From contig NC_017461.1 of assembly GCF_000258425.1 (NCBI RefSeq), forward strand, positions 1 through 64,000: 64,000 nucleotides of DNA, written 5' to 3'. The notes under the pieces were generated by a model, which had not been told where the DNA came from, made no database searches, and worked only from the letters and a program-made list of their open reading frames with translations. Below are positions 32,438-62,892 of this stretch, piece by piece; the stretch's first letter is position 1; each line of letters starts with the position of its first letter. The position numbers and the translations under genes are program-made. Source of the DNA: Fervidicoccus fontis Kam940 (GTDB lineage: Archaea; Thermoproteota; Thermoprotei_A; Sulfolobales; Fervidicoccaceae).

Positions 32438-32504
32438 GCTACGGACTTCAAGGTACCTCCAGATAAGATGTTCGGCTTGAGCTCACTTCTCGCACAGAAA
32501 CTCT
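32438..32504 (+). repeat. 67-bp exact copy of an internal nrdG segment
   Basis: Positions 32438-32504 are identical, base for base, to 43698-43764 inside the nrdG-like gene, in the same orientation and 11,260 bp apart. The identity stops abruptly at both ends. On its right side it abuts a broken cbiB 3' end without a gap. The perfect match contrasts with the clearly diverged B12 paralogues next to it, so this duplication is recent. Confidence 0.97.
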
Positions 32505-35024: not shown

Positions 35025-35100
35025 GAATCTGTTAGATAGGATTGAGACAACGTTTTACACGTTCCAGGCTCACCGTGAATCTATCAGAAAGAATTGAGAG
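35025..35100 (+). repeat. degenerate two-repeat CRISPR relic
   Basis: Two decayed 24-nt repeats lie at 35025-35048 (GTT type, three changes) and 35077-35100 (ATC in the loop, three other changes against the CTC type). They enclose a 28-nt segment at 35049-35076. That segment matches 1664-1691, the Walker A-coding DNA of the AAA+ ATPase gene, at all but two or three positions, and read as codons it encodes GEPGTCKT. No leader adjoins it. The inter-repeat distance is shorter than in the live arrays (36-39 nt). Confidence 0.8.
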
Positions 35101-36822: not shown

Positions 36823-37410
36823 CTAGATGTTCATTCCAATCATTTTATATAGGTTCTTGGTCGCATCTAGGGACTTCCACCTCGCCCACAGGTCACGAGC
36901 TATCGCTGTGGGCTCATGGGTGGTTGTCGAGCCCAACGGCACGAGGCTCCCATCTAGGGGAGACCTGCCTAGGCTCGGAGCAGTGCTCCCATCGCCTAGG
37001 CGGATCTTGAGGAGGTTCCAGACGGCTACCACGTCCCTGTGCCAGGCCTCGCCGCCCTTAGTGCACCTCCCGAGCCTGGATCCATTCTCGTAGGCGATCT
37101 CCGAGCAGTGGATCGGGCAGAGCCTGGACGTATTCCTCGGGTTCACGTAGACTACCGGAAGGCCGTGTTCTCGGGCTTTCTCCTCAATCGCCTTCTGCAT
37201 GCCTCTAAAGGCGGCTTGGAATATCCTGTGCCTCAACTGGCGATCCCTTATCCTGGAGACCATCTTCTCACCGGGTCTCCTGCCGAGCCTCTCCATGACT
37301 ATGGCGTAACCTCTCTTGGAAGCCTCTCTCACAATGATGTTCGCAATCTTCCACCTCGCGTCATCTTTCTTTTCCTTTTCCTTGAGCTTCCTCAGGATCC
37401 TCTCTTATTC
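36823..37410 (-). mobile_element. tnpB: TnpB (IS200/IS605, IS1341-like) remnant
   Basis: The C-terminal half of a TnpB nuclease is readable: ILRKLKEKEKKDDARWKIAN, the RuvC-II strand GYAIVMERLGR, the VYVNPRNTSRLCPIHC zinc finger, GRCTKGG and RuvC-III WHRDVVAVWNLL. The frame is broken near 37405 (a TAA ahead of ILRKLK), and the zinc knuckle has an extra residue (CPIHC). The N-terminal half is not recognisable. No tnpA is present. It lies against the Walker A end of a broken archaeal ATPase. TnpB proteins of this kind are RNA-guided nucleases; this one is dead. Confidence 0.8.
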
Positions 37411-37682
37411 TTTCTCGAAAAAAAGGTGCCCGAGCCAATATCGAGAAGCTCTTCTCCAATCGAGAACTCTTTTTCCCAACTCCTATTTACTTTCTGTGGA
37501 TCGATGGTCGTTCGATCCTTTCGGTGAACTCCCCCTCCATATATTCTCCGTCGACATACCCTGAAATATCCTCTTTCTCGGATCTTTAAACGGATGGAAG
37601 CATGCATTCTGGATATAGATTTTCTCAATCCGCATCTCTCTCAGAGGATGCAGGAGGATTCGTCCTGAAGAGAGAGGGAGGG

Positions 37683-37868
37683 GTGGAGGATGAAATGAAG
37701 CGGTTGGAAAGCAGGCTGAAGCGGGCCGAGAAGCTCCTCGGGAGCCACAAGCTCCCGATGAACAGGATCAAGAACATCATCGAGACCAGCGTGGACTGGA
37801 GAGTTTGCTCTCCTGATACGATCAGGAGGATCTCGAAGGAGCTGAAGGAAGCCCAGTCTATAGATTGA
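37683..37868 (+). CDS. small helical protein ahead of the mini-TFB gene
   Basis: About 60 residues if started at GTG 37683 (VEDEMKRLESRLKRAEKLLG). The frame is open back to 37602. It is highly charged and probably alpha-helical (RIKNIIETSVDWRVCSPDTI). I do not recognise a family. Its TGA overlaps the TTG start of the TFB-like gene (TTGA), so the two are translationally coupled. It opens a four-gene plus-strand operon. Confidence 0.55.
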   Translation: MEDEMKRLESRLKRAEKLLGSHKLPMNRIKNIIETSVDWRVCSPDTIRRISKELKEAQSID

Positions 37869-38407
37869 GCGAACGAGGGAATCCTTCTATGGAAGAGTGC
37901 TCTGGTTGCAAGGAGTTGATCTGGGACTACAGGACGGGGGACATCATATGCTCCGAGAGCGGAGAGATCTGCGAGAAGATATACGTGGAAGAAGATGCTC
38001 CTGCGAGAGTAGAGGGGGAGGGGAAGAAGTCCAGGGGGAGGAAGAAGGACCTACAGAGGTCCTACAGGGCATATTTCAGGCTATTGAAGAAGGCGAAAAG
38101 AAAGGGGCTCCTGATAAGCGAGGAGGGCTTCATGCGCTATCTCAGCTCAGGCAAGCAGGTCATGGTCTTCTCCCATCCCAAGACCCCCTCCCTCATGCGC
38201 TTCATAATGGAAAATGAGATCATCAGGAGGGCTTTCGAGAGGGTGAGCAGGGATCCCAGGTTCTCCGGGAGGACTCTGAGGGCCAAGGCGGCTGCAGCGA
38301 TGATCTTGGCTTCAAGCGACAGCATTGCGCGCATAGCCGAGGTGACCGGGCTGAGCCCCGAGCATATAGCGAGGCTGAGGAAGCTTCTTAAGGAGGACAG
38401 CTTTTAA
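37865..38407 (+). CDS. short TFB (TFIIB)-like protein
   Basis: A 180-residue protein, against about 300 for a normal archaeal TFB. The N-terminus has a zinc-ribbon pattern C12-x2-C15 (CSGCKELIWDYRTGDIIC) with C29, but the fourth position is Ser32 (CSESG) and the nearest other Cys is C36. A basic linker (KKSRGRKKDLQRSYRAYF) takes the place of the B-finger. Only one cyclin-like half follows (LRAKAAAAMILASSDSIARI). It may be a promoter-recruiting variant or a repressor of transcription. It is coupled to the genes on both sides. Confidence 0.7.
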   Translation: MSERGNPSMEECSGCKELIWDYRTGDIICSESGEICEKIYVEEDAPARVEGEGKKSRGRKKDLQRSYRAYFRLLKKAKRKGLLISEEGFMRYLSSGKQVMVFSHPKTPSLMRFIMENEIIRRAFERVSRDPRFSGRTLRAKAAAAMILASSDSIARIAEVTGLSPEHIARLRKLLKEDSF

Positions 38408-38426
38408 AGGGAGATTTTTTCTGGGG

Positions 38427-38735
38427 ATGAGAATGGAGTTCGAGGCCAGGCTCTTCAGGTTCGTGAGCACGGGGGACATCTCAATTTTGAACGAAAGGGC
38501 TTTCTCCTTCTTCAGGATGAAGCACCTCCTCTATTTCTTAATTTCTATCTTCTTCCTGTGGAGGGGGATGAATGGGAGCCCCTCCCTCCTGGCTATGGGA
38601 TCCACGCTGGTCGCTTTCTCTATCCTAACTTCCCTGCTGAGCAGAGGGGCTATGAGCTTCGAAGCGAAGATGATGGCTCTCCTATCTTCTATTCTCGAGA
38701 TGACCGTCTCGCTGGGGAGAGAATATGAAGGTTAA
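38427..38735 (+). CDS. small membrane protein in the mini-TFB operon
   Basis: A 102-residue protein with two predicted membrane segments (HLLYFLISIFFLWRG and LLAMGSTLVAFSILTSLL), charged ends and no recognised family. It overlaps the next gene by 11 bp (TAA within the start region) and lies 19 bp after the TFB-like gene, so it is part of the same operon. Confidence 0.65.
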   Translation: MRMEFEARLFRFVSTGDISILNERAFSFFRMKHLLYFLISIFFLWRGMNGSPSLLAMGSTLVAFSILTSLLSRGAMSFEAKMMALLSSILEMTVSLGREYEG

Positions 38736-40812
38736 GTTCGGCTATAGAGTGAAGGGATCCTTCGAGATACCGTTTGGAAATTACAGGGTGGAGCTCTCTC
38801 CATACGATTTGGAGAGCATAGTCCTGAAAGGCTACGTTCTTCATCCCAGAATAACCCCCAGAGGGATCCTGGGGAACGCTTGGGTCGAGAGCATTGAGAA
38901 CTGCGAAAACGCCGTTTTCTTGAACGAGGACTCGTATATTTGCAGTGCTCTCGCAGGACTTTCACACGAGGAAATGGGGGTAGCCCTGATCAAAGGCATA
39001 AAGGAGTACATCGTTGAGCTAGGGAACGGAGCAAGATATAAGGGGGAAAGGGCAGTTTTCTCATCGGCAGCGGGAGCCTCTGTCATCGCCCTCTACGATC
39101 CTCCCTACACCCATGTCTTCACAGCAACGCAGGAAGGTTCTACTGTTCATGAGAGGGTCTACAGGGGGGAACCCGAGAGGGTTAGCATAGGCTACAGGAG
39201 CTTTTCCGTAGTCTATAGAGATGGGAGATCGCAGATCTTTCACGCAGACGAGATAAGTGAAGCGGGCTTTCCCATCGATGCTCTAGCTCATTGCAATGGC
39301 ACCGTCCTAGGAAAAAGCTCTGGATGGCTCATTTGGATGGATTCAGAGATGCCGAAGCCAACCACCATAGTTGAGAGCGAAAAGATCAGCTTCATTGGCT
39401 TCCAAAGCGGGCTCCCCATCTTCAAGATAGAGAATAAGCTCCTTCGATTAGAGGGAGGAGCGCTGATAAACGTGGAGATACCTGATGCTTCAGGATTCGT
39501 TACTGCGAGCAATGTCATAGTCATAAATCGAGACGATGAGCTCTTCGTCTATGATGCGAACCTGAAGCCATATATGAAGATGAGGAAGGATGCTTCTTCG
39601 AAGTGCTTTGCTCATGAAAGCGAGGTCTTCTGCTGCACTGAAGGCATTTGCGGGTTTCTTGAAAGAGGGGAAAGCGAGCTTCAAGCTTCAGCAGACATCT
39701 CTAGCGGTTCTCACACTCTCCATATCGCAGCGACCGATTTCCCCTTCTACATTGTCTCAGAGAATGAAGAGAGAAGAGGGGGAGAGATAGAGATGAGGGA
39801 GGAGAGAGCGACGATACTTGAGCCGTTTGAGTTCTTGGTGGAGCTGAGGCACCTGCTGGGTTCGCACAAGCTATACCTCCTATCGCCTGAAGCTGAAGTC
39901 TCCATCGACGCGGAAGCGAAGATTCTCACTAGCTCTGGAAGACACGAATGCGGGGGATCGGCCTACGGGAAAATAAACGTGAAGAGAGTCGAAGCTCCTG
40001 AGAGGATCAAGCTCTTCGCCCTGGGAAAAGATCTCAAGGAGGGCGAGAACATAGAGCTCTGCCTAGAGAAGGCTTCGGAGACTATAAATGTTGAGGCCTT
40101 CGATGCTATATCTAATGTCAGGAAGGAAATAGCGAATATAAAGCCGAGCATAACCTACATCGGTTCTCCCTCATCTGATATCAAGGTTGTACATGAATAT
40201 GATGAGAGCGTGATCGAGATCGAGAGCGATGCTGAGGTGAGGAATCCAATACTGCACTGCAGGAATGGTGATTTTCCCCTTCAGGGAAAGATCAGCGAGG
40301 TCAAAGGGTGCGTGGCTCCCGCTTTCATAACTTATGAGCTCTACAGAGAGGGTTTCATTTTTCTTAGGAGGAGGGATGTTGTGCTCAAGGGATTGATTGA
40401 CTTCCTGCCTCTGAGCATAAAGGAGTCTGGACTGAACGAATATAGCGAGGGGGGCTTCGTGGTGAAGATTGCGGTTCCAGAGCTACCAAACATCGATCCC
40501 CTGAGCAGCTTTAAGCTCAAGGTCGGAAGAGGTGCTGAGCTCTATTTCAAGAGCAAGCAAATCGGAAGGATCGCCATCCTGCTGGGGGATAGGAGCTTTT
40601 TGAAGACAGCAATAGTCAGGGCTGGGATGAATGTTTTATATATTCCCTTCAGCTCGAGCTATTTCCTAACTTTCGATAATGGTCATAGAACATACAGCTA
40701 TAAGCTAGAAGTTCCAATCGAAGAACTGATGAGAATTGCCGTGAAGCAGGCAGAAGCCCTAGCGATGAAAACTGAGCAACGCATCAATTTTATCAATCTG
40801 CAGCAGCTTTGA
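38725..40812 (+). CDS. large protein of unknown family, possibly beta-propeller
   Basis: A 695-residue, mostly beta-strand protein that I do not recognise. Between residues 100 and 370 it has repeated four-strand-like units (for example VSIGYRSFSVVYRDGRSQIF, SGWLIWMDSEMPKP, DDELFVYDANLKPYM) that suggest a beta-propeller. The C-terminal half looks like beta-sandwich domains. There is no signal peptide or membrane segment. It is the last and largest gene of the mini-TFB operon and ends about 130 bp before the mini-array leader. UpsX-like proteins are a loose comparison only. Confidence 0.6.
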   Translation: MKVKFGYRVKGSFEIPFGNYRVELSPYDLESIVLKGYVLHPRITPRGILGNAWVESIENCENAVFLNEDSYICSALAGLSHEEMGVALIKGIKEYIVELGNGARYKGERAVFSSAAGASVIALYDPPYTHVFTATQEGSTVHERVYRGEPERVSIGYRSFSVVYRDGRSQIFHADEISEAGFPIDALAHCNGTVLGKSSGWLIWMDSEMPKPTTIVESEKISFIGFQSGLPIFKIENKLLRLEGGALINVEIPDASGFVTASNVIVINRDDELFVYDANLKPYMKMRKDASSKCFAHESEVFCCTEGICGFLERGESELQASADISSGSHTLHIAATDFPFYIVSENEERRGGEIEMREERATILEPFEFLVELRHLLGSHKLYLLSPEAEVSIDAEAKILTSSGRHECGGSAYGKINVKRVEAPERIKLFALGKDLKEGENIELCLEKASETINVEAFDAISNVRKEIANIKPSITYIGSPSSDIKVVHEYDESVIEIESDAEVRNPILHCRNGDFPLQGKISEVKGCVAPAFITYELYREGFIFLRRRDVVLKGLIDFLPLSIKESGLNEYSEGGFVVKIAVPELPNIDPLSSFKLKVGRGAELYFKSKQIGRIAILLGDRSFLKTAIVRAGMNVLYIPFSSSYFLTFDNGHRTYSYKLEVPIEELMRIAVKQAEALAMKTEQRINFINLQQL

Positions 40813-40821
40813 ATCGATTTC

Positions 40822-40847
40822 TTCTCTTAGTCTTGCTTATTTTCAAC
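40822..40847 (-). repeat. 26-bp motif, copy 2
   Basis: This is the inverted copy of the motif at 15911-15936, differing by one base, with core AATAAGCAAGACTAAGAGAA on the minus strand. It lies 10 bp after the stop of the 695-residue protein gene and about 100 bp before the mini-array leader. Copy 1 also lies 10 bp after a stop codon, though in the other orientation relative to the gene. Confidence 0.75.
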
Positions 40848-40944
40848 TTGGCTCTGTTGTTGGGAGGCAGGTTGTGGTAAAATTTTCCAAAAAGTTATTC
40901 AGCAAAACCTTCTGCTACAAACTACTGAAGCTGTCTCACTTTTC

Positions 40945-41283
40945 GCAATATTTCCCGAGCTATTTCGGGAAGTATTTAAACCCCTTATAAATGCAAAATT
41001 CAGACAAAATTCTATATATAATTTCAACATGTTATTCCATCAAAGCAGGAGACATTATAAATGAATAACTTATTTGTTAAATTATTATATACTTTTAATT
41101 ATAATTTCCCAGAAATTTCTGGGAATTGATGGTCCTTTCGCGATCTTTTCGAGCGAGAGCGAAAAGCTTTTATTGATAATACCGCACAAGTTCATGAATT
41201 AAGCGGAAAATTTGTAAGGGCAAAAAGCTTTTATTGATAATACGCCATTATAAATAGTAAGAATGAACGCTACAAATAGTGCA
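40945..41283 (+). promoter_or_regulatory. leader of the one-spacer mini-array
   Basis: This is closely similar to the leaders of arrays 3 and 4 over their full 272-bp shared length, with a handful of base changes (for example AAAATTCT for AAAATGCT). It has one 61-bp insertion, so that AAAGCTTTTATTGATAATA occurs twice (about 41164-41182 and 41225-41243). Both palindromes (TTCCCGA..TCGGGAA near 40968 and TTCCCAGAAA-TTTCTGGGAA at 41106-41125) are kept. A TATA-like CATTATAAAT at 41247-41256 would place the transcript start just before the first repeat. Confidence 0.9.
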
Positions 41284-41368
41284 GAATCTACTAGATAGAA
41301 TTGAAAGTTTTTTTCGATCCATCTTCCGGATTTCTGTATACCACGAATCTACTAGATAGAATTGAAAG
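41284..41368 (+). CRISPR. mini-CRISPR: two ACT-type repeats and one spacer
   Basis: There are two identical 24-nt repeats, at 41284-41307 and 41345-41368, reading GAATCT, ACT, AGATAGAATTGAAAG. They enclose one 37-nt spacer (41308-41344). The triplet ACT is found in no other array here. The array is preceded by a complete leader and ends 31 bp before the likely ATG of nrdD. No repeat decay is visible, so Cas6 could still cut it. Confidence 0.95.
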
Positions 41369-41399
41369 CTTTTCATGACCTTTGGAATGGTGTTTCCCT

Positions 41400-43307
41400 A
41401 TGGAGAAGCAGGTTGTAAACCGCGAACCGGAGAAGAGGATAGACCCTCTGGTGAAATACGCAGAGTGGAACAGCCTCGACGTCAACGAGAACGCGAACAG
41501 GTACATAGGACCCACTGGGTTCTTCAGCTACCTCCTCGAAGATTACATGAAGAGGGAGCTCCTCGGGCTCATGCCAAACAGGGTTCTCAGATCCCACTCG
41601 GAAGGACTCATCTATATCCACAAGCTCCCTCACAGCATCTACATCCCGTATTGCTCGGGCCACAGCATAAGCAGGCTCCTCGAAAAGGGTCTGGAGACTT
41701 TCACCGTAGTGTCTAGACCGGCGAAGCACTTCGATACATTCGTAGATCACGTCGCAAATTACCTCATAACCATGCAGCACTACTTCACTGGAGCTCAAGC
41801 ATTCTCGAGCGTCGAGTGGTACGCTGGCCCATTCATAAGGAATGATGGGCTCGATAGCAGAGAGGTGAAGCAGCACATCCAGAGGCTGCTCTTCAACCTC
41901 AACTACCCAACGAGGGTTGGAATGCAGACGCCCTTCACCAACTTCACGGTCACGATGGACGCCGCCAGGAAGGCTCTGGAGGGAGACAGCGCCGTATATG
42001 ATGGGAAGAAGCTCAATCCTCTCGGAGCATACGAGGACGAAGCTAAGACCTTCTTCAAGGCGATGGTAGAGCTGCTCATGGAGGGGGATGCTCTCGGGCA
42101 ACCCTTCACATTCCCGATCCCGACCCTCATGACAACAGCTTCGTGGCTCTGGGAGGACCCAGAGCTCCATGAGCTCATATTCAGGGCAGCAGCCAAGAAG
42201 GGAAGCTTCTACTGGCTCAACACGAGGGTCGTTGATCCCGATGCCTCATTCGCGATGTGCTGCAGGATAGCGATAGACAGGAGCGAGCTGACCTACGCCC
42301 TTTCTGGGAAAGGTAAGCCAGGTCTGGGAAGCTTGAAGATGAGGGACCTGGAGGAGGTTCAGAACGAGTACTGGAAGAAGATGGAGAGGCAGAGCTTCGG
42401 GGGAATATGGGCCATGCCCGACATAACTGGAAGCGTCAATGTTGCTGATGTGAACCTCCCCAGAGTAGCTTTGGATGCCCAGAGCGAAGAATCAAAGTTC
42501 TGGGAGCTGTACGAGGAGAGGCTCATGCTCGTGAGGGAGGCTGTGGACTGGTTCAGGCAGAGATATGTTAAGCTCATGAAGCAGTACCCGAGCCTCTATG
42601 GAATGATTCTGAAGTACATGCCCGAGTTCCCATCGAGCCACTTCAATACGATAGGCTTAGTTGGCTTGCCCGAAGCCGCGGCGATATTTATGGCTGATCC
42701 GAAGCTCTGGTTCGAGGGTTCGAGGAGCAACAAGATGAGCGCAGCCGATCTCATGAGGAAGATGGTGGAGTTCGCAACGAAGCATGCGAGGGAGTGGATG
42801 AGGGAGAGCGGTGTGCCCTGGAACGTCGAGGAGGTACCCGCTGAGTCCGCTTCTCCGAAGATGGCAAGCATGGACCTGAAGCTTTACCCCCATCTCTCTG
42901 AGTATTTGCCAGATCCCAGCGAGCCCGTTTACAGCACGAGCATCGCCCCATACTATGGGAGCATAGAGCTGCCGGAGAGGATAGAGATAGAAGCGAGGGT
43001 GCAGAAGTTCTTCACTGGAGGAGTCATGATGCACATATTCCTCGGGGAGGAGGCTGAGCCGGAGTCCCTAGCTAAGCTAGCTAAGAGGATGATGGAGATG
43101 GACCTAGTATACTGGAGCTTCACTCCTTCCCTAACTTACTGTCCCTCGTGCAGGAGAACCTTCACTGGCCTCCACACAAAGTGCCCGGTCTGCGGGAATG
43201 AGAATGTTGAGATATGGAGCAGGATTATCGGCTATTACAGGCCGCTGAAGAACTGGAACCCGCAGAGGAGGAAGGAGTTCTGGACGAGGAAGCACTACTC
43301 CTGGTGA
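41400..43307 (+). CDS. nrdD: anaerobic ribonucleoside-triphosphate reductase (class III)
   Basis: About 635 residues. Glycyl-radical reductase marks are RYIGPTGFFSYLLEDYM at the start, PYCSGHSISRLLEKG, DPDASFAMCCRIAIDRSEL (active-site Cys pair), a C-terminal zinc site TYCPSCRRTF...CPVCG and the radical loop SRIIGYYRPLKNWNPQR. It makes dNTPs without oxygen, after activation by NrdG. No ATP-cone domain is present. ATG 41400 is preferred; TTG 41382 is in frame. The only DNA between the 695-residue protein gene and nrdD is the mini-array and its leader, so the leader promoter probably drives this gene. Confidence 0.95.
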   Translation: MEKQVVNREPEKRIDPLVKYAEWNSLDVNENANRYIGPTGFFSYLLEDYMKRELLGLMPNRVLRSHSEGLIYIHKLPHSIYIPYCSGHSISRLLEKGLETFTVVSRPAKHFDTFVDHVANYLITMQHYFTGAQAFSSVEWYAGPFIRNDGLDSREVKQHIQRLLFNLNYPTRVGMQTPFTNFTVTMDAARKALEGDSAVYDGKKLNPLGAYEDEAKTFFKAMVELLMEGDALGQPFTFPIPTLMTTASWLWEDPELHELIFRAAAKKGSFYWLNTRVVDPDASFAMCCRIAIDRSELTYALSGKGKPGLGSLKMRDLEEVQNEYWKKMERQSFGGIWAMPDITGSVNVADVNLPRVALDAQSEESKFWELYEERLMLVREAVDWFRQRYVKLMKQYPSLYGMILKYMPEFPSSHFNTIGLVGLPEAAAIFMADPKLWFEGSRSNKMSAADLMRKMVEFATKHAREWMRESGVPWNVEEVPAESASPKMASMDLKLYPHLSEYLPDPSEPVYSTSIAPYYGSIELPERIEIEARVQKFFTGGVMMHIFLGEEAEPESLAKLAKRMMEMDLVYWSFTPSLTYCPSCRRTFTGLHTKCPVCGNENVEIWSRIIGYYRPLKNWNPQRRKEFWTRKHYSW

Positions 43308-43316
43308 GCTCCAGCT

Positions 43317-44078
43317 TTGAGCGATGCGAGGCTGATCGGGGCAGGCTGGAAGAGCATTAGCCTCATCGACGTCGTGGATTCAGTGACCTTCACTGTATGG
43401 CTCTGCGGATGCAACCTCAGCTGCCCCTTCTGCCACAACTGGAAGCTAGCTGGCAACAATCCAGAGAGGTGCGACTTTCTGGACAACAGGAGGCTCCTCG
43501 AGGATGTCGAGGCATCTAGAGGCCTGATCGATTTTCTGCATGTGACTGGAGGGGAACCCCTGGTTCAGTACATTGAACTCGGGAAGCTTCTTCGGACTTT
43601 GAAGGAGAGCTATGGCATCGAGGTGAGCTTGAACACTAACTTGACCCTCACCTCTCCCTTGAGTAGAATTATTGAAGAGGATCTGGTGGATCACCTCGCT
43701 ACGGACTTCAAGGTACCTCCAGATAAGATGTTCGGCTTGAGCTCACTTCTCGCACAGAAACTCTGGCAGAAATATGAAGAGGGCCTCTCGCTCGTCGCAG
43801 ATCACCAGCTCCCGCTCGAGCTGAGGATCCCGATAGCTAAGTTCACCACCCCCGAGCTCCTCGGAGAATATCTAAGAAGAGTGGAGAGGAGCCTCTCCAG
43901 GCTAAGCAAGCTGGTCATTGTTATCAACCCCCTGCTTGGTGAGCCAGCAACTACTCCAAGGGATAGAGAGTGGTGCTCCTCTCACTGCAATCCAAGCAAC
44001 GACCGATTGGATGAGATAGCTGAAAGTGTGAAAAAGCTCGGCTTCGAGGTCAAGATCAAGAAGTGGGTCCTGGGCTGA
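43317..44078 (+). CDS. nrdG: NrdG-like radical SAM activating enzyme
   Basis: A 253-residue radical SAM protein with the cluster motif CNLSCPFC (C-x3-C-x2-C) near residue 36, then FLHVTGGEPLVQ and LNTNLTL strands. It is longer than bacterial NrdG, as is usual in archaea. It generates the glycyl radical on NrdD. The start is TTG at 43317, 10 bp after nrdD, so they form an operon. Positions 43698-43764 are duplicated exactly at 32438-32504. Confidence 0.92.
   Translation: MSDARLIGAGWKSISLIDVVDSVTFTVWLCGCNLSCPFCHNWKLAGNNPERCDFLDNRRLLEDVEASRGLIDFLHVTGGEPLVQYIELGKLLRTLKESYGIEVSLNTNLTLTSPLSRIIEEDLVDHLATDFKVPPDKMFGLSSLLAQKLWQKYEEGLSLVADHQLPLELRIPIAKFTTPELLGEYLRRVERSLSRLSKLVIVINPLLGEPATTPRDREWCSSHCNPSNDRLDEIAESVKKLGFEVKIKKWVLG
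43698..43764 (+). repeat. source copy of the 67-bp exact repeat
   Basis: This is the internal nrdG segment that recurs without a mismatch at 32438-32504. It is in frame with and part of the intact gene, so this is the donor copy. Confidence 0.97.
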
Positions 44079-44328: not shown

Positions 44329-45403
44329 ATGGTAGAAGGAATCGAGACTGCGCATGGTAGCTTGGATTTAGAAGGGCTGGTAAAGGAGAAGCCGATCGCT
44401 GTGTGTGTCATTAGTTCAACGCTCACATCTACAATACCGAATATATCATTAGCAGGAGAGATATCCATAGCAACCCTTTTCACTCCCACTCTCGATGTAG
44501 AATACGTCTTCTATGGAAAGCCCATGAGCATAGATATTATTCCAACCACTCCCAGCGGGATACCAACTCCAGCTCTCATAACAAGAGTAGCGCTCCAGCT
44601 CTCAGGGATCCCCTTCATAGCAGTTGATTCAGGTTCATATATTGAACCCAGGATGCCCTTCATTGCCTTGCCGAGTAGGAGGGTCGGGGAAGATAAATGA
44701 GGAGGAAGCTCTCCCGAGAGGCACTTCGAGGAAGCTCTTTCTCGAGGCGAAGAGTCTGGGAAAAGTCCTCGGATCCCTCTCGAGAGTCGTCATGGTCGGA
44801 GAGAGCATGCCTGGTGGAACTACGACTGCCCTCTCCATACTGAGAGCCCTCGGAATAGGCGATTACAACTCCACGAGCAGCTCCTCGAATATTAATCCTG
44901 TAGATATAAAGAAGAAGGTGGTGGAAAGAGCCTTAGAGAGGGCGAGAGGGGTGAGCGATCCCTTCGAGATAAATGATATCGCTGGAGATCCTCTGCACAT
45001 ATCTGTAGCAGGTATGGCAGTCGGGATATTGAGTGCAAACAGCTACGCGATACTTGCTGGAGGAACTCAGATGCTCGCAGCTCTGGCATTGATGAAGTCC
45101 TCGGGTGAGAGCTTCAATGAAGAGAGTGTGGCAATAGCGAGGACGAGATGGGTCTACGAAGATAGGGGAGAGGAAATGGTCAAGATAGTGAAAAGGATAT
45201 CGCCGGGATCATCGATCCTCTATATAAACTTGAACTTCTCGGATTCTCCTTTCGAAGGTCTCAGAGCGTTCGAGAAAGGCTTCGTGAAAGAGGGGGTGGG
45301 AGCAGGAGGGGCATCGATACTTGCCATCTCGAGAGGAGTGAGTATGGAAGGTCTGAAGGCATCTATTTATAAGGAGTATGAGAGTCTCATAGAGAGAAAG
45401 TGA
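44329..45403 (+). pseudogene. cobT: CobT-like phosphoribosyltransferase, frameshifted copy B
   Basis: The first frame (from ATG 44329) reads ISSTLTSTIPNISLAGEIS and FIALPSRRVG, then terminates at 44700. The second frame carries KINEEEALPRGTSRKLFLE, VGESMPGGTTTALSILRALG and ILAGGTQMLAALAL to 45403. The slip lies in the GGGTCGGGGAAG run near 44688. Otherwise it aligns end to end with cobT at 22689-23744. One indel is the only visible lesion, so a recent mutation or a sequencing slip is possible. Confidence 0.9.
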
Positions 45404-45409
45404 GGCTCT

Positions 45410-46029
45410 ATGGCAAAAGTAATTGATGAGAGCAGCGACTTCCTTCTCATAGATCTCGAAGGAGAGCTCATGTCTCTCTCTACTTCAGGCTGCCCGAAGG
45501 TATATGAAAGAGCGAGATATTTAGCCTTCAAGAGGGTGCCGAAAGGCTTCGAGCATGTTGATCTAGATGAATACTGCAGAGAGGTATCGAGGAGCCTCGG
45601 AGTTGATATCGAGGAAACAGCCCTTTTCTTCACTGCAGTGGACCTGAGGAATTACTCGAAGGGATCATACAGCCATAGAGGAGTGAAAGCTGAGGCGTTC
45701 GTAACCTATGGCGTTGACTCACCATCATGCTTCGAGGAAAGAAGGCGGGAAATTGGGACGATAAACGTCGCAGTAATAGTAGAGAAGCCCATGAGCAGGG
45801 TTGGGCTCCTCGATCTCTTCAGGACAGTCTCTGAGATAAAGGGCATGTCGATATCGCTCGGAGGTCCTATGTGCCCCTCTCATTCCTCAGTAGGAACGGC
45901 ATCCGACGCAACAATGGTAGCATCTCCTCAAGGCGATGAGAGTTTTGGTGGGATAGCTACGGATGTAGGCATCTCTGCTTCTCTAGCGCTTCTCGAGGCG
46001 ATCTCCCAGCAAATTGCATCGATACCCCT
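45410..46029 (+). pseudogene. cbiS: cbiS copy B, truncated after the CbiZ domain
   Basis: From ATG 45410 it encodes a CbiZ domain closely similar to copy A (LSTSGCPKVYERARYL, AFVTYGVDSPSCFEE, SDATMVASPQGDES, ATDVGISASLALLEAIS). Homology stops at about SQQIASIP (46025-46029), and the frame then runs a few codons into foreign sequence. The CobZ phosphatase half is absent. The remaining 210 residues could still be an amidohydrolase, because CbiZ works alone in other archaea. It uses a normal ATG with GTGAGG upstream, unlike copy A. Confidence 0.85.
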
Positions 46030-46260
46030 GACCTTTAACTTTTGCCCCATGTCATGAAGGAAGCCTATCAAGAAAGCATCTTGAGATTCTGGTACATCCT
46101 CATATCTTTTACCATAAACCTCGACAAAAATTTCGAAGGCCCTCCCTACAGCGTAGCTGTGAAGAAGAAGCGATATCGATGTCCAGTACTTCGCAGGGGT
46201 AGATGATATAGGTGGAGGAAGCAGAGAATAGGCGATTTTAAGGTCGCGAGCGTAACCCAA
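46025..46260 (-). pseudogene. HD-domain cas gene fragment (Cas10d or Cas3''-like)
   Basis: Reading leftward from TTG 46260: GYARDLKIAYSLLPPPISS, LLLHSYAVGRAFEIFVEVYG, SQDAFLIGFLHDMGQKLKV. The LLHSYAV helix and the FLHDMGQKL motif are typical of the HD nuclease domain at the N-terminus of Cas10d/Cas10 or in Cas3''. The frame then passes directly into antisense cbiS sequence at about 46025. Only the first 80 residues or so remain. It differs from the intact Cas3'' at 49095-49880. Confidence 0.6.
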
Positions 46261-46426: not shown

Positions 46427-47266
46427 ATGAACATTAAAGGCTACAGGGTAATCGTGGAGGTCGAGTCGAGCCAGCCAGTAGTGGAGTTCACAGGGAGGTT
46501 GGTCAAGTCATTCGTTTTCGCTTTGAACCCGCATTTGGAGCTCATGAAAGGCTTTGAAGGAATTTTGTCGCCACTGCACATATCCCCACTCTTCAAAGTG
46601 AAGCTTGACCACGACTTCGGTGAGCCGGCTTACACATTTGCTGTTGTTTCAAAGAAGGAGGAAAGGGAGATAGAACCCCTGAACTTGAACGGAGAGTTCG
46701 TATTTCACGTTGGGGGAGATGAGAGTACAGTGAACAACGTAGTGGATAAGATAGGAAAAATCAATGGTTCCATCTTTCTCAGGATCCACGACGCCTTGGT
46801 CAAGTATAAAGTTGAAAAAATAGTGGACGTTACCGAGGAGGTATTTGGAAAGGTATATCAAATAACTGACAAGGTTAAAGTCTACCTGAAGTCACCGGCA
46901 CAAATATTCAACCCCTATGCATCTACGAAACTCCCAAAATTCACTCCTTCTGCGATTGAAGTACTGATCGCCCCATATGCTATATTGAACCGAAATTACA
47001 CGATAACGGAGAGCTTAGTCGTTTCCTCTTTTCCAACTATCGGGAAACTGGTGGAAACTTGGTACAGCATAAAGACTTTGAGGCCTATAGCAATATTCTT
47101 CAAGGGAAAGAAACAAGTTAACCTGGCAGGAAGTATAACCTATTTGATTCAGAACGAGAATGCTAAGGAGCTCGAAATGGTGCAGAAAACTCTGGCAGTT
47201 GCGGAACTAGCAGGTATAGGTAGATCGCGTCAGAATGGTTTCGGAACAACAGTCGTGGTCAAGTAA
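46427..47266 (+). CDS. cas6: Cas6 crRNA endonuclease, paralogue 1
   Basis: A 279-residue RAMP protein with two ferredoxin-like halves and the C-terminal glycine-rich loop GIGRSRQNGFGTTVV characteristic of Cas6. It cuts pre-crRNA in each repeat, 8 nt before the repeat end, leaving the ATTGAAAG handle. It is on the plus strand, alone, with its own ribosome binding site, opposite the main I-A operon. A relic repeat lies at 47432-47455 between it and the second cas6. Confidence 0.88.
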   Translation: MNIKGYRVIVEVESSQPVVEFTGRLVKSFVFALNPHLELMKGFEGILSPLHISPLFKVKLDHDFGEPAYTFAVVSKKEEREIEPLNLNGEFVFHVGGDESTVNNVVDKIGKINGSIFLRIHDALVKYKVEKIVDVTEEVFGKVYQITDKVKVYLKSPAQIFNPYASTKLPKFTPSAIEVLIAPYAILNRNYTITESLVVSSFPTIGKLVETWYSIKTLRPIAIFFKGKKQVNLAGSITYLIQNENAKELEMVQKTLAVAELAGIGRSRQNGFGTTVVVK

Positions 47267-47412
47267 ATAGAGGGGAGGTTTCGCTTCAGATGTCCAGGAA
47301 AGTATTTATAAGCTTTTCCGACAAAAAAATACATGTCTGCAAAGCTGACGGGATCCTTTTTGTCGGTGAAAATTGGGGTCCCGCATAGAATTTCCCGCAT
47401 GTCAAAGCCCCG

Positions 47413-47455
47413 GTTGAAAATAAGCAAGACTAAATCTGCCAGATAGAAATGAAGG
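47413..47455 (+). repeat. 26-bp motif (partial) fused to a relic CRISPR repeat (GCC type)
   Basis: Positions 47413-47433 repeat the first 21 bases of the motif seen at 15911 and 40822. They run straight into a decayed repeat at 47432-47455 (AATCT, GCC, AGATAGAAATGAAGG). The stem ATCT/AGAT is intact and the loop is GCC. The same GCC loop occurs once in array 3, at 55194-55217 near its trailer end. Confidence 0.75.
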
Positions 47456-47493
47456 GGAGGATAAAAAAAGAAACAGAGCTGATTTCACTGTAA

Positions 47494-48408
47494 TTAAGAG
47501 TCAAGGAAAAGGGAGATCTCTCCCAGTCCTATTCCCCTGCTTTTCCCTACCCCAACTATCTCCGCGATCTTAAGTAATCTAACAAAAGCTCCAGCAACCC
47601 CCTCGTTCATTGCCCTGTAGTTGATCCAACCGATTATTCCCCTGCCTCTCCTCATATTTCCCTTATCATCCTTTCCAAGCAAAACAGTGACAGGTTTGAG
47701 CTCGTGATCGACCTCTTCTACGAACAGGTCAAAGAAGCGAAGCGCCATGTAGGGGACCCTTTGATCCTTTTTGCCTATTTCACCCAAGTGCTCTAGCAGG
47801 TTCTTCAAGACGCTGCCCGCGAGCAAACCAGGAGTTGGTAACAGGGAATAGCTATCCTTCAGAGCAGAAGCTCTCTTCGAGAGCCATGGCGGTGTTGCTA
47901 TCTTCTTGCTCAATATCGTCGGAGTTAGGAATCTCACCCTCACGGATCCCGCTGTTGAAGCAGGAACTTCCCGTATGATGTCGATCGTGGTCACCTCTAG
48001 CTCAACTTCGCCATAGGGAGTTTTGACCGAGACATATGGCTTCGGAAGGTAACTCATCAATGCATTGCTATCAGATATCAGGACGATCTCCGCCTCATAG
48101 AACTTATCAGGATCCATATGAAGGAGACCCTTTTTCCCCTCGAGAGCTACAAGCCTCCCTCCGCTGCCAGGAAGCCTGAGTGCCTTGTAGAGCACTTTTC
48201 TAGGTCTCTTCGATTCAGCATACATTTCCCATATATTGTGCAGATCTTCCGAAGATGCTACCGCGGCTTTGAGCAGGTTCGAGCTCAATGGCGGAAGCAT
48301 TATGAAGTCTCTCGACTTGACCCTGTAGCTTATTCTAATCAGGCTTCTCGTTCTCAAGAACTCCTCTACAATCGCGTTCACTTTTTTGAGCATTTCAATC
48401 AACGCCAT
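47494..48408 (-). CDS. cas6: Cas6-like RAMP protein, paralogue 2
   Basis: A 304-residue protein ending in the glycine-rich loop VGVGKSRGIGLGEISLF, with GSVRVRFLTPTIL-type strands of Cas6. It is quite different in sequence from paralogue 1. It is the last gene of the type I-A operon and overlaps csa3 by 14 bp. The two Cas6 proteins may serve different repeat families, or this one may be bound to the I-A Cascade. Confidence 0.8.
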   Translation of the reverse strand: MALIEMLKKVNAIVEEFLRTRSLIRISYRVKSRDFIMLPPLSSNLLKAAVASSEDLHNIWEMYAESKRPRKVLYKALRLPGSGGRLVALEGKKGLLHMDPDKFYEAEIVLISDSNALMSYLPKPYVSVKTPYGEVELEVTTIDIIREVPASTAGSVRVRFLTPTILSKKIATPPWLSKRASALKDSYSLLPTPGLLAGSVLKNLLEHLGEIGKKDQRVPYMALRFFDLFVEEVDHELKPVTVLLGKDDKGNMRRGRGIIGWINYRAMNEGVAGAFVRLLKIAEIVGVGKSRGIGLGEISLFLDS

Positions 48409-49090
48409 CAGAGTGGTTTTTTTCTCCTTCAGATGGAAGTACGTTCCTGAAAGCTCTGGAAATAACCATTCCCTTGGGTGTGAGTTTGTACAGATCTTTC
48501 CTTCCTCTCTTTTCTGGTGTTATCAGCCCCAGCTGTCTGAGTAGCTTCACTGATCTGAATACTGTTGGCTTCGATTTTCCAAGCTCACGGGAAATATCGT
48601 CGAGCGTCAGCGCTTCCTTTCTGGAAATCAAGTCAAGAACTCTCAGCGACAAGCTGGATAAAAATGGCTTGACAGTTATGTAAGTAAGAAAAGATATATC
48701 GTATCTACCCTTCAGATCTTCGGTCCATATTCTGATTTGGAGCCTATAGGGATCCACAGAAGCAATAGCTGCTCCGAGGGTTATTATACCGATGAGCCTC
48801 ATTCCACTGCTAACATCTATTATGATGCTCGATTCTTCTAGATCGAGAAGCCTCTTTGAAATCTCATGAAAAGCTTCATGTGGTGAAGAGAAATCTATTT
48901 CCCATACTTCCACGCTTCTTTCAACATACTCTTTGATAAAAGTTGTTATTTCATCGAGAGCTTTCAAAACCTTTTCGTTCTTGTCGTTGTTTATAACTGC
49001 TATGAAGAGATCTGCATCAGGCTGTTCTAGAATCGTCTTGAATATGAATTTCGGATCGAATCCAACGGTGAAAATGACCGATTTCTTCAT
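48395..49090 (-). CDS. csa3: Csa3 CARF-wHTH transcription regulator
   Basis: A 231-residue protein. The N-terminal CARF domain begins SVIFTVGFDPKFIFKTILE and has the ligand motif IIDVSSGMRLIGIITLGAAI (residues about 95-114). The C-terminal winged helix reads LTLDDISRELGKSKPTVFRS. Csa3 proteins control cas genes and, in Sulfolobus, spacer acquisition, and can sense cyclic tetra-adenylate. Located inside the interference operon, it may correspond to the Csa3b type. It is intact, unlike the second csa3 at 59329-60028. Confidence 0.9.
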   Translation of the reverse strand: MKKSVIFTVGFDPKFIFKTILEQPDADLFIAVINNDKNEKVLKALDEITTFIKEYVERSVEVWEIDFSSPHEAFHEISKRLLDLEESSIIIDVSSGMRLIGIITLGAAIASVDPYRLQIRIWTEDLKGRYDISFLTYITVKPFLSSLSLRVLDLISRKEALTLDDISRELGKSKPTVFRSVKLLRQLGLITPEKRGRKDLYKLTPKGMVISRAFRNVLPSEGEKNHSDGVD

Positions 49091-49094
49091 TACT

Positions 49095-49880
49095 TCATCT
49101 CTCCTCTATACATGACAAGTCGAAATCGACGAAGAATTTCTTTTTAATGTTTCTCTCTTCACCCATATCGCTTTCAACTTGGCTAGCAGAATAATTGTCG
49201 CTCATGATAAGTACCTTCAGAATATGCTGAGCCATCATCGATACCTTCGCAGCTTTCGGTTCATGCATTTCAAATATATTCCACGCTAAATATCTTTCTG
49301 TAAACTCTTTATAAGTTTCAATTAATCCTTTGAGTTCTTCATCTTCGACTTTCTCCCTCATTTCCAGCCATTCTTCCAGTCCCATCCCATTGACCACTTT
49401 AGCGAGAAAGTCCCTTAAAATGAAAGGTATTTTACTTCTATAGGTACTGTTAAGGAATCTCCCATAAAATCGATTTATTATCGCTAAAGTGCTTAACCTA
49501 TCTCCCATTGCCAGGTGGTGAGCACGCACAGCGAGATGCATTGAGATCGGAACTGCATAGAACGAGAAATCATCGGGTTTCATGTTCTTCTTTAATTCAA
49601 GTTTCTTCGAAGCGATGTGCATTACTAGGCTGGAAAGGATCTCATGTCCTGCGAAGCTTTCAGGTGGCTCCTTGGTTTCAGGATTATGATAAAAAATTTT
49701 CCCCATATCGTGAAATATAATGGTAGAAACCATCGCCATGTCCAGCTCTCTTTCCGGGATGCCGAGCCTCTTAGATAGCCTCGCTGTGTATTTCCTACGT
49801 TTGTAGCACTTCTCATAGAAATCTATCATTTTTTTAATATGTTCATCTAACATCTGTCCTTTTCTAGCCCAAAAGCTCAT
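49095..49880 (-). CDS. cas3'': Cas3'' HD nuclease (type I-A)
   Basis: A 261-residue HD-domain protein with STIIFHDMGKIFYH at about residue 52-65, a second His in FAGHEILSSL and further His in VRAHHLAMG. It is the stand-alone nuclease of the split type I-A Cas3 and degrades the displaced strand with two metal ions. It is coupled to the cas3' helicase gene by a 1-bp overlap. Confidence 0.92.
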   Translation of the reverse strand: MSFWARKGQMLDEHIKKMIDFYEKCYKRRKYTARLSKRLGIPERELDMAMVSTIIFHDMGKIFYHNPETKEPPESFAGHEILSSLVMHIASKKLELKKNMKPDDFSFYAVPISMHLAVRAHHLAMGDRLSTLAIINRFYGRFLNSTYRSKIPFILRDFLAKVVNGMGLEEWLEMREKVEDEELKGLIETYKEFTERYLAWNIFEMHEPKAAKVSMMAQHILKVLIMSDNYSASQVESDMGEERNIKKKFFVDFDLSCIEER

Positions 49881-51538
49881 TATCGTCCACCGTAAGCGAT
49901 GTCCGCATATAAATCTTCTGATATGCTAATGGACTCGATGCAGTTCTCTTTCAAATAAAGGTTAACTTTTTCTATACTTTTCTCTCTACTGAGCATAGCT
50001 TCAATCTTATTTATAAACTCTTCTTTACTCAACACCTTCCCCTCCTCTCTGCAAGTTTCGATGTTGCGAATTTCGTTCAAGAGCCTATCTTTAGGGTATG
50101 CGAAGAGATCCTGAACAGGTATAGAAACGCTGTCTCCTCTCCTCCCCTCGATAAAAGCATTTATGCTAACTATCCTTCTTCCGAGCTCTCCAGTTAAGAA
50201 ATCATTGATGTTTAGAGGTTGATCTCGCGGAGAGAGCGATAGTATGTCCTTTCTATATTGGATGTGCTCCTCGTCGCTTCTCATCAGACCATCCCACTCT
50301 TCTACTAGCTTCATATAGCCTATTTTTCCCTCTTTCCCCAATGGTGCTTTGAGTGCGACCCTATTGAGCCTCTCAACTAACAGGTCTTTCGTCGCCTCAA
50401 CTTCTTTTGCATCATAGGGTCCTCGTCTTTCTGTAATCAGTATCACCAGCTCTCCATCCACATCTTCATCCTTCCTCAGGAGCCTGCCTGCCCTCTGTAT
50501 CAAGCTGGGGAGAGGAGACAGTTCGGCAACCATGAAATCGCTGCTAATATCGATTCCAGCCTCTACAACGCTAGTCGCCAGTGCTATATAGCTTTCTCCC
50601 CTCTTGTACATATCCAAGAGCTCCGAAGTTCTCTCTTCTCTATCGTTCTTCGAGAGGAGACCGTGAAGAAGTATGGGCCTTTCTCCCAATTCTAATAGCT
50701 TTCTCTGAGCTTTCAATACTGTTTCCCTGGTATTCAGTATTATGAGGACCCTTTTTCCCTCTCTCTTTCTCTTAATTGCCAAAGAGAGAGAATCATCCAA
50801 ACTTTCGCTCATTGATATGCTCACTCTCTTGGCAAGAGCTTTTTCTTCGAAATCTTCATCTCTGCCGTCCGCTTCCCCGCACTTTTCTCCATATAAGCAC
50901 TCTGTATACTTTATATCAATTTTCAGCATATCCCTGGTCGTTTCCAGCAACTTCTTCGCATTACTGATCATGGATCCAGGTATCGTAGCCGAAGCCAAAA
51001 CCACCGTCGCACCTGTCCCCAAAAGATAGTAGAGCGTGTTATAGAACATTTGCTTCATGCCTTTCTCCAATACCATCAGATGAGGCTCGTCTATGAACAC
51101 TAGAGACTCGCTCACGTTGCTCCTCGATACGGGATAGTGACCCCTCGTCGAAAAATCCTTCTTGAAGAATCCGCGGAGAAGGGCTTTCAATTCTGGAATT
51201 GGAATCTTGTGCAAATGCATGCCTATAGTGTCTATGGTCGTGACGATGACCTTTTTATGGAAAAAAGGCGACTCTCGGCGCTCCATATATTCCCTCGCTA
51301 AGATGTCAGAGTTCTCCCTCAAACAGGGGACCCGTTCTGCTAGCTTTCTGTACAGATCCTCATTCAAAGTTCTCAGGGGGGAAACATAAACAGCCCTCTC
51401 TATGTTCCCATTGCATGTCATCTCTGCAAATTGGAGAAAAAGCTCCGTCTTTCCATAACCTGTGGGTAGCCTCAGGACTCCCAGTCCTGGCACGGAGGGA
51501 TCGAAAAAATCTTGAAACTCAGTTATGAGGAGCCTCAT
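49880..51538 (-). CDS. cas3': Cas3' helicase (type I-A)
   Basis: A 552-residue superfamily 2 helicase. Motif I is RLPTGYGKTELFLQF (K30), motif II FIDEPHLM (DEPH, about residue 150-157), motif III ASATIPGS and motif VI SLIQRAGRLLR. No HD domain is attached, which is typical of type I-A. It unwinds DNA recruited by Cascade and feeds it to Cas3''. It ends where cas3'' begins, and its start is 30 bp after cas8a. Confidence 0.93.
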   Translation of the reverse strand: MRLLITEFQDFFDPSVPGLGVLRLPTGYGKTELFLQFAEMTCNGNIERAVYVSPLRTLNEDLYRKLAERVPCLRENSDILAREYMERRESPFFHKKVIVTTIDTIGMHLHKIPIPELKALLRGFFKKDFSTRGHYPVSRSNVSESLVFIDEPHLMVLEKGMKQMFYNTLYYLLGTGATVVLASATIPGSMISNAKKLLETTRDMLKIDIKYTECLYGEKCGEADGRDEDFEEKALAKRVSISMSESLDDSLSLAIKRKREGKRVLIILNTRETVLKAQRKLLELGERPILLHGLLSKNDREERTSELLDMYKRGESYIALATSVVEAGIDISSDFMVAELSPLPSLIQRAGRLLRKDEDVDGELVILITERRGPYDAKEVEATKDLLVERLNRVALKAPLGKEGKIGYMKLVEEWDGLMRSDEEHIQYRKDILSLSPRDQPLNINDFLTGELGRRIVSINAFIEGRRGDSVSIPVQDLFAYPKDRLLNEIRNIETCREEGKVLSKEEFINKIEAMLSREKSIEKVNLYLKENCIESISISEDLYADIAYGGR

Positions 51539-51567
51539 AGGAATCCCTCGTTATGCGCATAAACACC

Positions 51568-52782
51568 TCAAGCCTTCTTTATGAGCTTCATGAGTTGCCT
51601 GAGTACTCTGGGGTCTCTGAAAGTATATTCAGCATCCCCCGAGAGTCTAGAAAGTCTATAGACGTTTCCATAAGGATCGATGCCTGAGAGGATATTCCAG
51701 AGGCTCCTGACCATTGCGCTCATCGTCGAGAGATCTCCCCATTTCTCCTGGCAGATCGCTGAGCTTCTGCCCGCGGCAGATCTCAGGGTACACTTCAGCA
51801 AGTCCTCGATGCTTTTTTTCAGCGTTCCATACTCCACACCCGTGATGAGGGGCTGAAGCATTTGATAGAGCGAGCTGAGGCTTATGGGGATTTCTTCTGT
51901 CACTATGTATGCGTTGTTCCCAACGGAGATCCTTTGATAGCTGAGGCTTATGACACCCGCTCTACCTAGTATTTGCGGGCTCATGTTGAGGAATAGTAAC
52001 AGGGTATAGGCTTCTCCATGAGAAGGCGGCTCTTTAACCTTTATGGGAGCTTCTGAGAAGTCTTCTATAACGGAAGTTATAACGCTAGCTGAACCTATAT
52101 TCTGGATTTCGGATAATATGAGGTTTTCATCAATCAACAAGCTGAGGAGTGTATCTCCGAAGTAGCCAGAGAAAGAGGCCAGCCAACCACCACCGAGTAT
52201 GCCGTACCAAAGCGGAGAAATCTTCATATCGCCCTTGAATTTCAGCGAGAGGTAGTTTCTTCCATATTCATATTTTTCAAGCTTGAGTACCTGTAACTGG
52301 GCAAAGTCAGCCATGTCTCCTCCTAAATATAGAGTATCACCCGAAAGATTGATGCTTTTCAGCTCTGTTTCGAGGGCGATGTTGCCGATCCTGGATATAT
52401 ACATAGGCATGCTATCTACAACTTTCTTGAAGAAGGAGCAAATGGTGTCATCATCGCTGATGGAAAAGCCAAGCTTTGATGAAAGTCTTTGGGCTACCCA
52501 CTTATAATCGTTGATATTCAGTTTAATACGGGGGCAAGGAAGTCTTTCACTATTCGTGGCCAATAGCTTTGACTTATACATATTTGTGATTGAGGAAAAA
52601 GCCCCATTGAGGACAAGGTCAGGCGAACCACTGAAAACAAGAGAGTCTCCAGCTATATTGACTCCACTAGGTGCATAGCCCGCCATGAATGAGGCGAAGT
52701 ACAGAGAGAGCCTCCTCGCTGTCTGAAACTCGAAAGGCGGAATTTTCATGATAAATCCTCTTTCCCCCATCGTTCTCACCAT
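51568..52782 (-). CDS. cas8a: Cas8a large subunit (Csa4-like)
   Basis: A protein of about 400 residues at the position of the type I-A large subunit, between cas5a and cas3'. It resembles the Csa4/Cas8a2 family: FEFQTARRLSLYFASFMAGYAP at the start and IDPYGNVYRLSRLSGD near the end. It is likely to recognise the PAM. ATG 52749 (MKIPPFEFQT) is preceded by GGGGAAAGAGG and is a better start than 52782, which overlaps cas5a by 7 bp. Confidence 0.82.
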   Translation of the reverse strand: MVRTMGERGFIMKIPPFEFQTARRLSLYFASFMAGYAPSGVNIAGDSLVFSGSPDLVLNGAFSSITNMYKSKLLATNSERLPCPRIKLNINDYKWVAQRLSSKLGFSISDDDTICSFFKKVVDSMPMYISRIGNIALETELKSINLSGDTLYLGGDMADFAQLQVLKLEKYEYGRNYLSLKFKGDMKISPLWYGILGGGWLASFSGYFGDTLLSLLIDENLILSEIQNIGSASVITSVIEDFSEAPIKVKEPPSHGEAYTLLLFLNMSPQILGRAGVISLSYQRISVGNNAYIVTEEIPISLSSLYQMLQPLITGVEYGTLKKSIEDLLKCTLRSAAGRSSAICQEKWGDLSTMSAMVRSLWNILSGIDPYGNVYRLSRLSGDAEYTFRDPRVLRQLMKLIKKA

Positions 52783-54670: not shown

Positions 54671-55002
54671 TACGCAACAACCCCCTCTGCTTTATTTTCT
54701 TCGCTTTCTTTCTCATGAGTTAGCGAGAGAGTTGCCAAAATGCTGCCAGCGATTTTTCCCTTCTTTTCATCCATCAGGAGCCTGATGGTGATTTCCACGT
54801 CCCTCTGTGGAGGAAGTCTATTGGGATCTTCGCTCGCTATCATCCTGAGGGCTCTCCACAGAGATTCTACTCTCAGTTCAGGTTTCTGAGAATCAGCAAT
54901 GACATCTATAGTGTTGTAGGCCTTATTTTCTATAAGAAGGTTCAATGCCGTCGCAACCCTCCTGAGGGCCCACCACTCTGAAGGTTCGAGCTTTTCGGCC
55001 AT
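54670..55002 (-). CDS. csa5: Csa5 (Cas11a) small subunit
   Basis: About 110 residues, helical, beginning MAEKLEPSEWWALRRVATAL and containing VESLWRALRMIASEDPNRLP, matching the Csa5 small subunit that stabilises R-loops in type I-A. ATG 55002 is preferred over 55023: a TATA-like AAGTTTAAATAC (rc of 55035-55046) would start transcription near 55015. It is the first gene of the interference operon. Confidence 0.85.
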   Translation of the reverse strand: MAEKLEPSEWWALRRVATALNLLIENKAYNTIDVIADSQKPELRVESLWRALRMIASEDPNRLPPQRDVEITIRLLMDEKKGKIAGSILATLSLTHEKESEENKAEGVVA

Positions 55003-55075
55003 ATTTATCACTATAATAATCAAACGAAGAAGTTGTATTTAAACTTTTGTTTTTTAGATATATTAATTTTAAAAG

Positions 55076-55101
55076 TTTTATTTCATTTTTATGAAATAAA
55101 A
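55076..55101. terminator. 11-bp hairpin between the I-A operon and array 3
   Basis: TTTTATTTCAT (55076-55086), loop TTTT, ATGAAATAAAA (55091-55101) is a perfect 11-bp inverted repeat. It lies between the end of array 3 transcription and the csa5 promoter and could stop array transcripts from reading into the operon, or bind a regulator. Confidence 0.45.
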
Positions 55102-55132
55102 TTTTCTGCACAATAGGATAGAATTGGGTACT

Positions 55133-56580: not shown

Positions 56581-56582
56581 CG

Positions 56583-62836: not shown

Positions 62837-62892
62837 GCGATTCCGAAAAAGATATATAGTTTATAGCTAAATAGAAGTTTAGGAGAACTGCC

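Follow-up and report, generated by a model that had tools for sequence, protein, structure and literature searches.

Within the window (the whole stretch analysed here, the first 64 kb of a 1,319,206-bp single-contig genome), the gene for an anaerobic ribonucleoside-triphosphate reductase, nrdD, lies directly behind a CRISPR leader and a one-spacer array, and is followed after a gap of 9 bp by nrdG, which encodes the activating radical SAM protein; both genes are open. The features of the region, with the model scores and junction ranks of their promoter-like elements, are:

40824..40847, plus strand: solitary second-family repeat (CTCTTAGTCTTGCTTATTTTCAAC), an exact match to repeat copies on contig C308 of MAG G007
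40932..41283, plus strand: CRISPR leader of the array A/B type with an internal 61-bp insertion (leader alignments)
40952..40971, no strand: dyad 1, TTCCC-N10-GGGAA, CAPPa-like (pattern search)
41106..41125, no strand: dyad 2, a perfect 20-bp palindrome, TTCCCAGAAATTTCTGGGAA (pattern search)
41161..41176, plus strand: BRE/TATA-like element in the duplicated 61-bp unit (score 6.48 at 41163)
41222..41237, plus strand: BRE/TATA-like element, present in five of five leaders (score 6.48 at 41224)
41248..41257, plus strand: second TATA-like stretch, ATTATAAATA, kept in five of five leaders (alignment; model score <2)
41284..41307, plus strand: CRISPR repeat 1, ACTA variant, GAATCTACTAGATAGAATTGAAAG (repeat search)
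41304..41317, plus strand: TATA-like element where the end of repeat 1 (GAAAG) meets the spacer's T7 run (score 6.39, rank 3 of 71 junctions)
41308..41344, plus strand: single spacer, 37 nt (no target found in searches)
41345..41368, plus strand: CRISPR repeat 2, identical to repeat 1 (repeat search)
41365..41378, plus strand: weak TATA-like element spanning the junction between repeat 2 and the 5' region of nrdD (score 4.81, rank 4 of 71 junctions)
41369..41399, plus strand: nrdD 5' region, with an SD-like GGTG at 41389-41392 (alignment, SD survey)
41400..43307, plus strand: nrdD (Pfam NRDD, 6.5e-144)
43317..44078, plus strand: nrdG (Pfam)
46427..47266, plus strand: cas6, which adjoins the second-family array in the second allele (gene identification)
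47413..47455, plus strand: fused remnants, in which a reverse-oriented second-family repeat at 47413-47436 merges with a degenerate first-family repeat at 47432-47455 (repeat searches)
47494..48408, minus strand: cas6a of the type I-A operon (gene identification)
48395..49090, minus strand: csa3, a CARF and winged-helix regulator and candidate ligand of the leader dyads (domain search)

The two repeats ahead of nrdD are 24 nt each, and the second ends 31 bp (41369-41399) before the nrdD ATG, exactly the distance given in a preliminary description of this DNA. That start codon agrees with the closest orthologue, whose ATG aligns at 41400 (MEKQVVNRE / MDQQVVTRE), and a TTG at 41382 was rejected on the same alignment. 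A repeat search and a leader alignment also bore out the earlier report of a complete-looking leader, two perfect ACT-type repeats and one spacer. A genome-wide pattern search allowing up to 2 mismatches located this first repeat family at 37 forward and 37 reverse places, compared with 0 forward and 1 reverse for a reversed-pattern control; its ACT(A) variant is confined to the two copies ahead of nrdD. Two identical copies of a private variant would be expected if this spacer had been integrated here and the repeat copied, or if a longer array made up of that variant had shrunk. With fixed-length direct repeats, a spacer of typical length (other first-family spacers measure 34-39 nt, with one of 48), a homologous leader and resident cas genes, the DNA upstream of nrdD has the make-up of a CRISPR array. 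The bases that differ between first-family arrays (ACT, CTC, GTT, ATT, GCC) would make up the loop of a putative 4-bp hairpin, AUCU-NNN-AGAU. Folded as RNA, the repeat at 41284-41307 did no better than shuffles (z 0.32), and the putative nrdD UTR gave nothing beyond chance (z -0.79 for 41277-41420 and +0.41 for 41361-41430).

Five first-family leaders can be aligned with one another: those at 41284, 61768, 56194 (reverse), 14144 (reverse) and the contig end. Relative to the leader of the array at 61768 (array A), that of the nrdD array is identical at 274 of 283 aligned positions, with 9 substitutions and 61 gap columns, and over its last 60 bp (41224-41283) it differs at a single position. 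The description of this element as a full leader thus holds for its homology to four other arrays, with the reservation that it carries a 61-bp insertion duplicating the BRE/TATA-like AAAAGCTTTTATTGATAATAC (41162 and 41223). In the same way, the claim that all the upstream DNA is leader and array is correct for the leader and array themselves, but homology begins only near 40925-40932, and a solitary repeat of a second family lies at 40824-40847.

Each of the five leaders contains two TTCCC-N10-GGGAA dyads, the spacing being 154 bp in three cases and 153 bp in two; those of array A lie at 61497-61516 and 61651-61670. Of the 10 exact copies of the pattern in the genome, 8 fall in leaders and the other 2 lie outside them, at 78695 and 192634; the two leader sites not among these have one mismatch each. 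The exact reversed pattern is absent from this genome. Allowing one mismatch leaves no genome-wide enrichment (49 versus 42), so that only the exact form of the pattern is informative. None of the 9 leader substitutions falls inside a dyad. In the 7 other genomes of the family the pattern occurs 1-5 times each; in MAG G007, one match belongs to a leader that shares 98% identity with the array A leader and adjoins a CARF-PIN gene, and another lies inside an AAA-ATPase-like gene (a name read off the sequence). Dyad 1 is also found upstream of divergent cas4a or CARF-PIN genes.

These dyads resemble CAPPa, the CRISPR-associated promoter palindrome linked to Csa3a in Sulfolobales, which the cited portion of the source prints as TCCC-N8-GGGA yet calls an 18-bp motif (PMC8699464). 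The two have in common their TCCC/GGGA arms, their location in leaders and acquisition-gene promoters and their near-absence elsewhere, and the concentration of exact matches in leaders (8 of 10) is in keeping with an operator restricted to leaders and acquisition promoters. The arms here are 10 apart instead of the published N8, and, unlike CAPPa as given in that portion of the source, the present dyads read TTCCC-N10-GGGAA and stand twice per leader at 153-154 bp (PMC8699464). A gene for Csa3, with a Csa3 N-terminal domain and a winged helix, is encoded 7 kb from the array. The leader dyads are candidate Csa3 operators, perhaps acting by looping.

We then considered the genes behind the array. 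A search of 40 genomes (this one included) found NrdD matches in 14. Among the other genomes of the family, 7 in number and all outside the genus, none has nrdD (0/7), the lone match, in G003, covering 32 residues at 34% identity. All 8 family genomes, this one included, have another reductase (PF02867), located here at 953354-955102, and the closest NrdD found, 81% identical, comes from a Thermogladius MAG. On these grounds nrdDG is an accessory pair and was probably acquired. A match at 675615 was rejected as a further reductase, being reverse gyrase. A 67-bp fragment of nrdG recurs identically 11 kb upstream (32438-32504, corresponding to 43698-43764); it was rejected as a second nrdDG operon, only the fragment being present. 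Behind nrdG, at 44624-46057, lie a CbiZ gene (Pfam) and an ORF of no assigned family, which places a cobalamin salvage gene beside a reductase of the nrdD type, which we take to be B12-independent.

The cas genes of the island (46427-58462) comprise two cas6 genes, csa3, parts of cas3, cas8a, cas5a, cas7a, cas4a and cas1. Arrays A (61768-62836) and B (55133-56194, reverse) are inverted with respect to one another and have spacers 4-9 in common, in the same order, while their newer and older spacers differ. Because these shared spacers sit within otherwise different arrays, we read them as showing recent array-array recombination followed by separate growth. A CARF gene in the same direction starts 56 bp beyond the end of array A and has a TATA-like element at 62847 (score 8.56).

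A second allele of the island was identified in MAG G007, five contigs of which (C308, C26, C57, C63 and C302; L076-L079 and L048) are 97.6-99.5% identical to the island, as against about 68-75% for the core DNA of that MAG. This disparity suggests a bin contaminant or a transferred island, which in either case provides an alternative allele. At the place upstream of nrdD, the second allele (97.6% identical) has a second-family array and not the first-family mini-array: the sequence of 37402-40847 runs directly into that array, whose repeat has 50 copies on the G007 contig, the last at the far end and reversed, and then into cas6 in inverted order. A separate contig carries only a remnant of nrdG, truncated at 43823. 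In the window, single or partial second-family repeats at 40824 and 47413 flank, in opposite orientation, the segment comprising the leader, the array, nrdDG and cas6, a layout that looks like the product of inversion and collapse between arrays. Relics lie around the array at 35025-35100, 47432 and 73663, with a leader remnant and degenerate repeat spanning 73537-73686, and there is a one-spacer second-family array at 85947-86025. Behind a CARF-PIN gene, a solitary second-family repeat with one mismatch (15911-15934) stands beside a solitary perfect first-family repeat (15967-15990).

Conservation of the arrangement in relatives had been put forward as a check on its significance. No short direct-repeat pair was found within 1500 bp upstream at any of 18 other nrdD loci, a set that includes four divergent relatives seen as partial matches and leaves aside L034, L036, L038 and L039, in which only the later part of NrdD was matched.

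The spacer at 41308-41344 had no match in this genome, in 197 genomes of the order (this one included) or in phages, and no target in viral contigs, where the best matches were one 21-mer and two 18-mers. The whole of array B had no match in phages, and the leader and array had none in plasmids beyond one weak 50-nt hit. The mini-array is chromosomal, and not carried on a virus or plasmid; a viral origin was rejected as unsupported, neither CRISPR repeat family occurring in any of the viral contigs searched.

To assess where transcription of nrdD might begin, a BRE/TATA model was built from 113 upstream regions in 214 kb of this genome, with nrdD left out. The first two motif runs gave weak or SD-like motifs, and the seed used was chosen among four for its BRE/TATA-like consensus, not as the top-marked one, and then refitted without nrdD; the resulting model separates real from shuffled upstream regions modestly (medians 4.97 and 2.94). 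By this measure the 31 bp between repeat 2 and the ATG are without a strong TATA-like element, the best being the one at 41365..41378, made of the GAAAG of repeat 2 and CTTTTCAT. Its score exceeds only 48% of the 113 real and 70% of the shuffled upstream regions, and is therefore like background; the ranking of the 71 repeat/spacer junctions was made after the sequence had been seen. SD-like 4-mers occur at the position of the GGTG in 46% of 114 genes, compared with 18-21% in control stretches, and the median TATA position is the same in SD and non-SD genes, so the GGTG says little about where the message begins.

An alignment of the 31-bp 5' region with that of the Thermogladius orthologue (L030) gave a p of 0.017, with 1 of 113 controls scoring as high. 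Among the other orthologues p was 0.24 (L003), 0.15 (L004), 0.027 (L016), 0.16 (L031), 0.024 (L032) and 0.07 (L035), that is, above 0.05 in 4 of all 7, and the homology is therefore suggestive. The aligned block stops at the repeat border, the repeat itself giving a non-significant p of 0.07; the resemblance of the 31 bp would place the junction at the end of the repeat. Since L030 scores weakly as TATA-like (3.87) at -36, matching the position of -35 here, the native core promoter of nrdD may still be in place.

Starting from the observed anatomy, the common leader with its dyad pair, the accessory nrdD and the alternative allele, we favour, at about an even chance, the reading that a rearranged satellite array of the resident type I-A family replaced or abuts the nrdD promoter, any read-through being a by-product of promoter capture. 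A rearrangement in the recombination-scrambled CRISPR island would have brought a leader-bearing one-spacer array beside nrdD-nrdG, and the junction may have taken the place of the promoter DNA found upstream of the orthologues. Part of the nrdDG message would then start at the leader promoter and carry repeat-spacer-repeat, from which Cas6 could free one crRNA, leaving a short mRNA leader with the SD-like GGTG; this would be promoter capture without a selected circuit. That read-through from the leader produces a repeat-spacer-repeat 5' UTR is plausible and a reasonable guess, because leader promoter elements precede repeat 1, there is no strong native promoter and two cas6 genes lie nearby. 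The contrast with the CARF gene behind array A, whose TATA-like element is clear (8.56) where the best of nrdD reaches only 4.81, also speaks for it. The preliminary description had set the RNA start just before repeat 1, at a leader TATA that was probably the ATTATAAAT stretch, which is kept in five of five leaders and scores below 2 in the model. The leader elements agree with that start, but TATA-like elements lie at both repeat ends, so nrdD could also start without the leader, and initiation there would be nearly as good an account as leader read-through. To a start within or just after an independent array we give a substantial minority chance; the message would begin near the ATG if the 41365 element were used, or near 41335 if the 41304 element were. 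The scores and ranks of both borders and the weak element that L030 has at the corresponding position support such a start, and cryptic promoters within spacers are documented in Sulfolobales in the part of the literature cited here (PMC10883916). However, the 41365 score is ordinary and the junction ranking post hoc, and a start from the -35 element has the weak point that it would give a nearly leaderless message despite the SD-like GGTG.

That CRISPR exerts a dedicated control over dNTP synthesis is no more than a possibility. It is unlikely that nrdDG has been captured into the CRISPR regulon, with a CAPPa-like leader driving a crRNA-precursor 5' UTR, Cas6 freeing the crRNA and fixing the 5' end of the mRNA, and dNTPs rising with CRISPR activation; were this so, dNTPs would rise when spacer integration and repair need them. 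Decidedly unlikely, in our judgement, is a dedicated link in which nrdDG is under the leader operators through Csa3, Cas6 sets the mRNA 5' end and immune activation alters dNTP supply. Both dyads are kept, with 0 of the 9 substitutions in them, csa3 is 7 kb away, and a statement on islandicus by Liu 2017, as relayed in the cited portion of PMC7480081, lends the idea some support. Yet nrdD is accessory, and the layout is absent from 18 of 18 other nrdD loci and from the second allele and is known from one genome only; these observations also go against the earlier proposal that the array ties dNTP synthesis to CRISPR activity. In addition, according to the part of the source cited, binding of CAPPa DNA by Csa3a of S. 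solfataricus was non-specific in vitro (PMC8699464). That the array is a dead relic, decayed and neither transcribed nor extended, with nrdDG silent or read from elsewhere, we consider very improbable: although other relics surround it and its spacer has no found target, its repeats are identical and of a private variant, as expected from acquisition in place, the last 60 bp of its leader are nearly those of array A, and nrdD and nrdG are open.

Searches of the open-licence literature turned up no description of a CRISPR leader or array fused to a ribonucleotide reductase gene. The virus-borne mini-CRISPR arrays of SPV1 and SPV2, in the sections of the report drawn on here, likewise have 1-2 spacers behind a host-like leader and use host cas genes; the present array differs from them in being chromosomal, beside the cas island, of a repeat family found in 0 viral contigs and 31 bp from a metabolic gene (PMC6858448). 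The Cbp1-Cren7 work on cryptic spacer promoters, as far as its cited passages go, likewise concerns TATA-like elements at repeat-spacer borders in a thermophilic archaeon, but there the promoters are internal to long arrays, whereas such a promoter in the present array would point into an open reading frame (PMC10883916). The islandicus system of Liu 2017 likewise involves joint regulation of CRISPR and DNA metabolism, in the excerpt available through PMC7480081 through a regulator that acts on separate promoters; in the present case the fusion of leader and nrdDG is physical and the co-regulation putative.

Should the leader drive nrdDG, the arrangement would be a naturally occurring example of metabolic gene expression behind a crRNA precursor and, if this holds true, a simple system in which to ask whether Cas6 cutting alters archaeal translation. 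The dyad pair of the leaders would extend a Sulfolobales-type operator to this archaeon and define a testable regulon. Even as an accident, the arrangement would indicate that array-array recombination can hand CRISPR promoters, together with their operators, to neighbouring genes.
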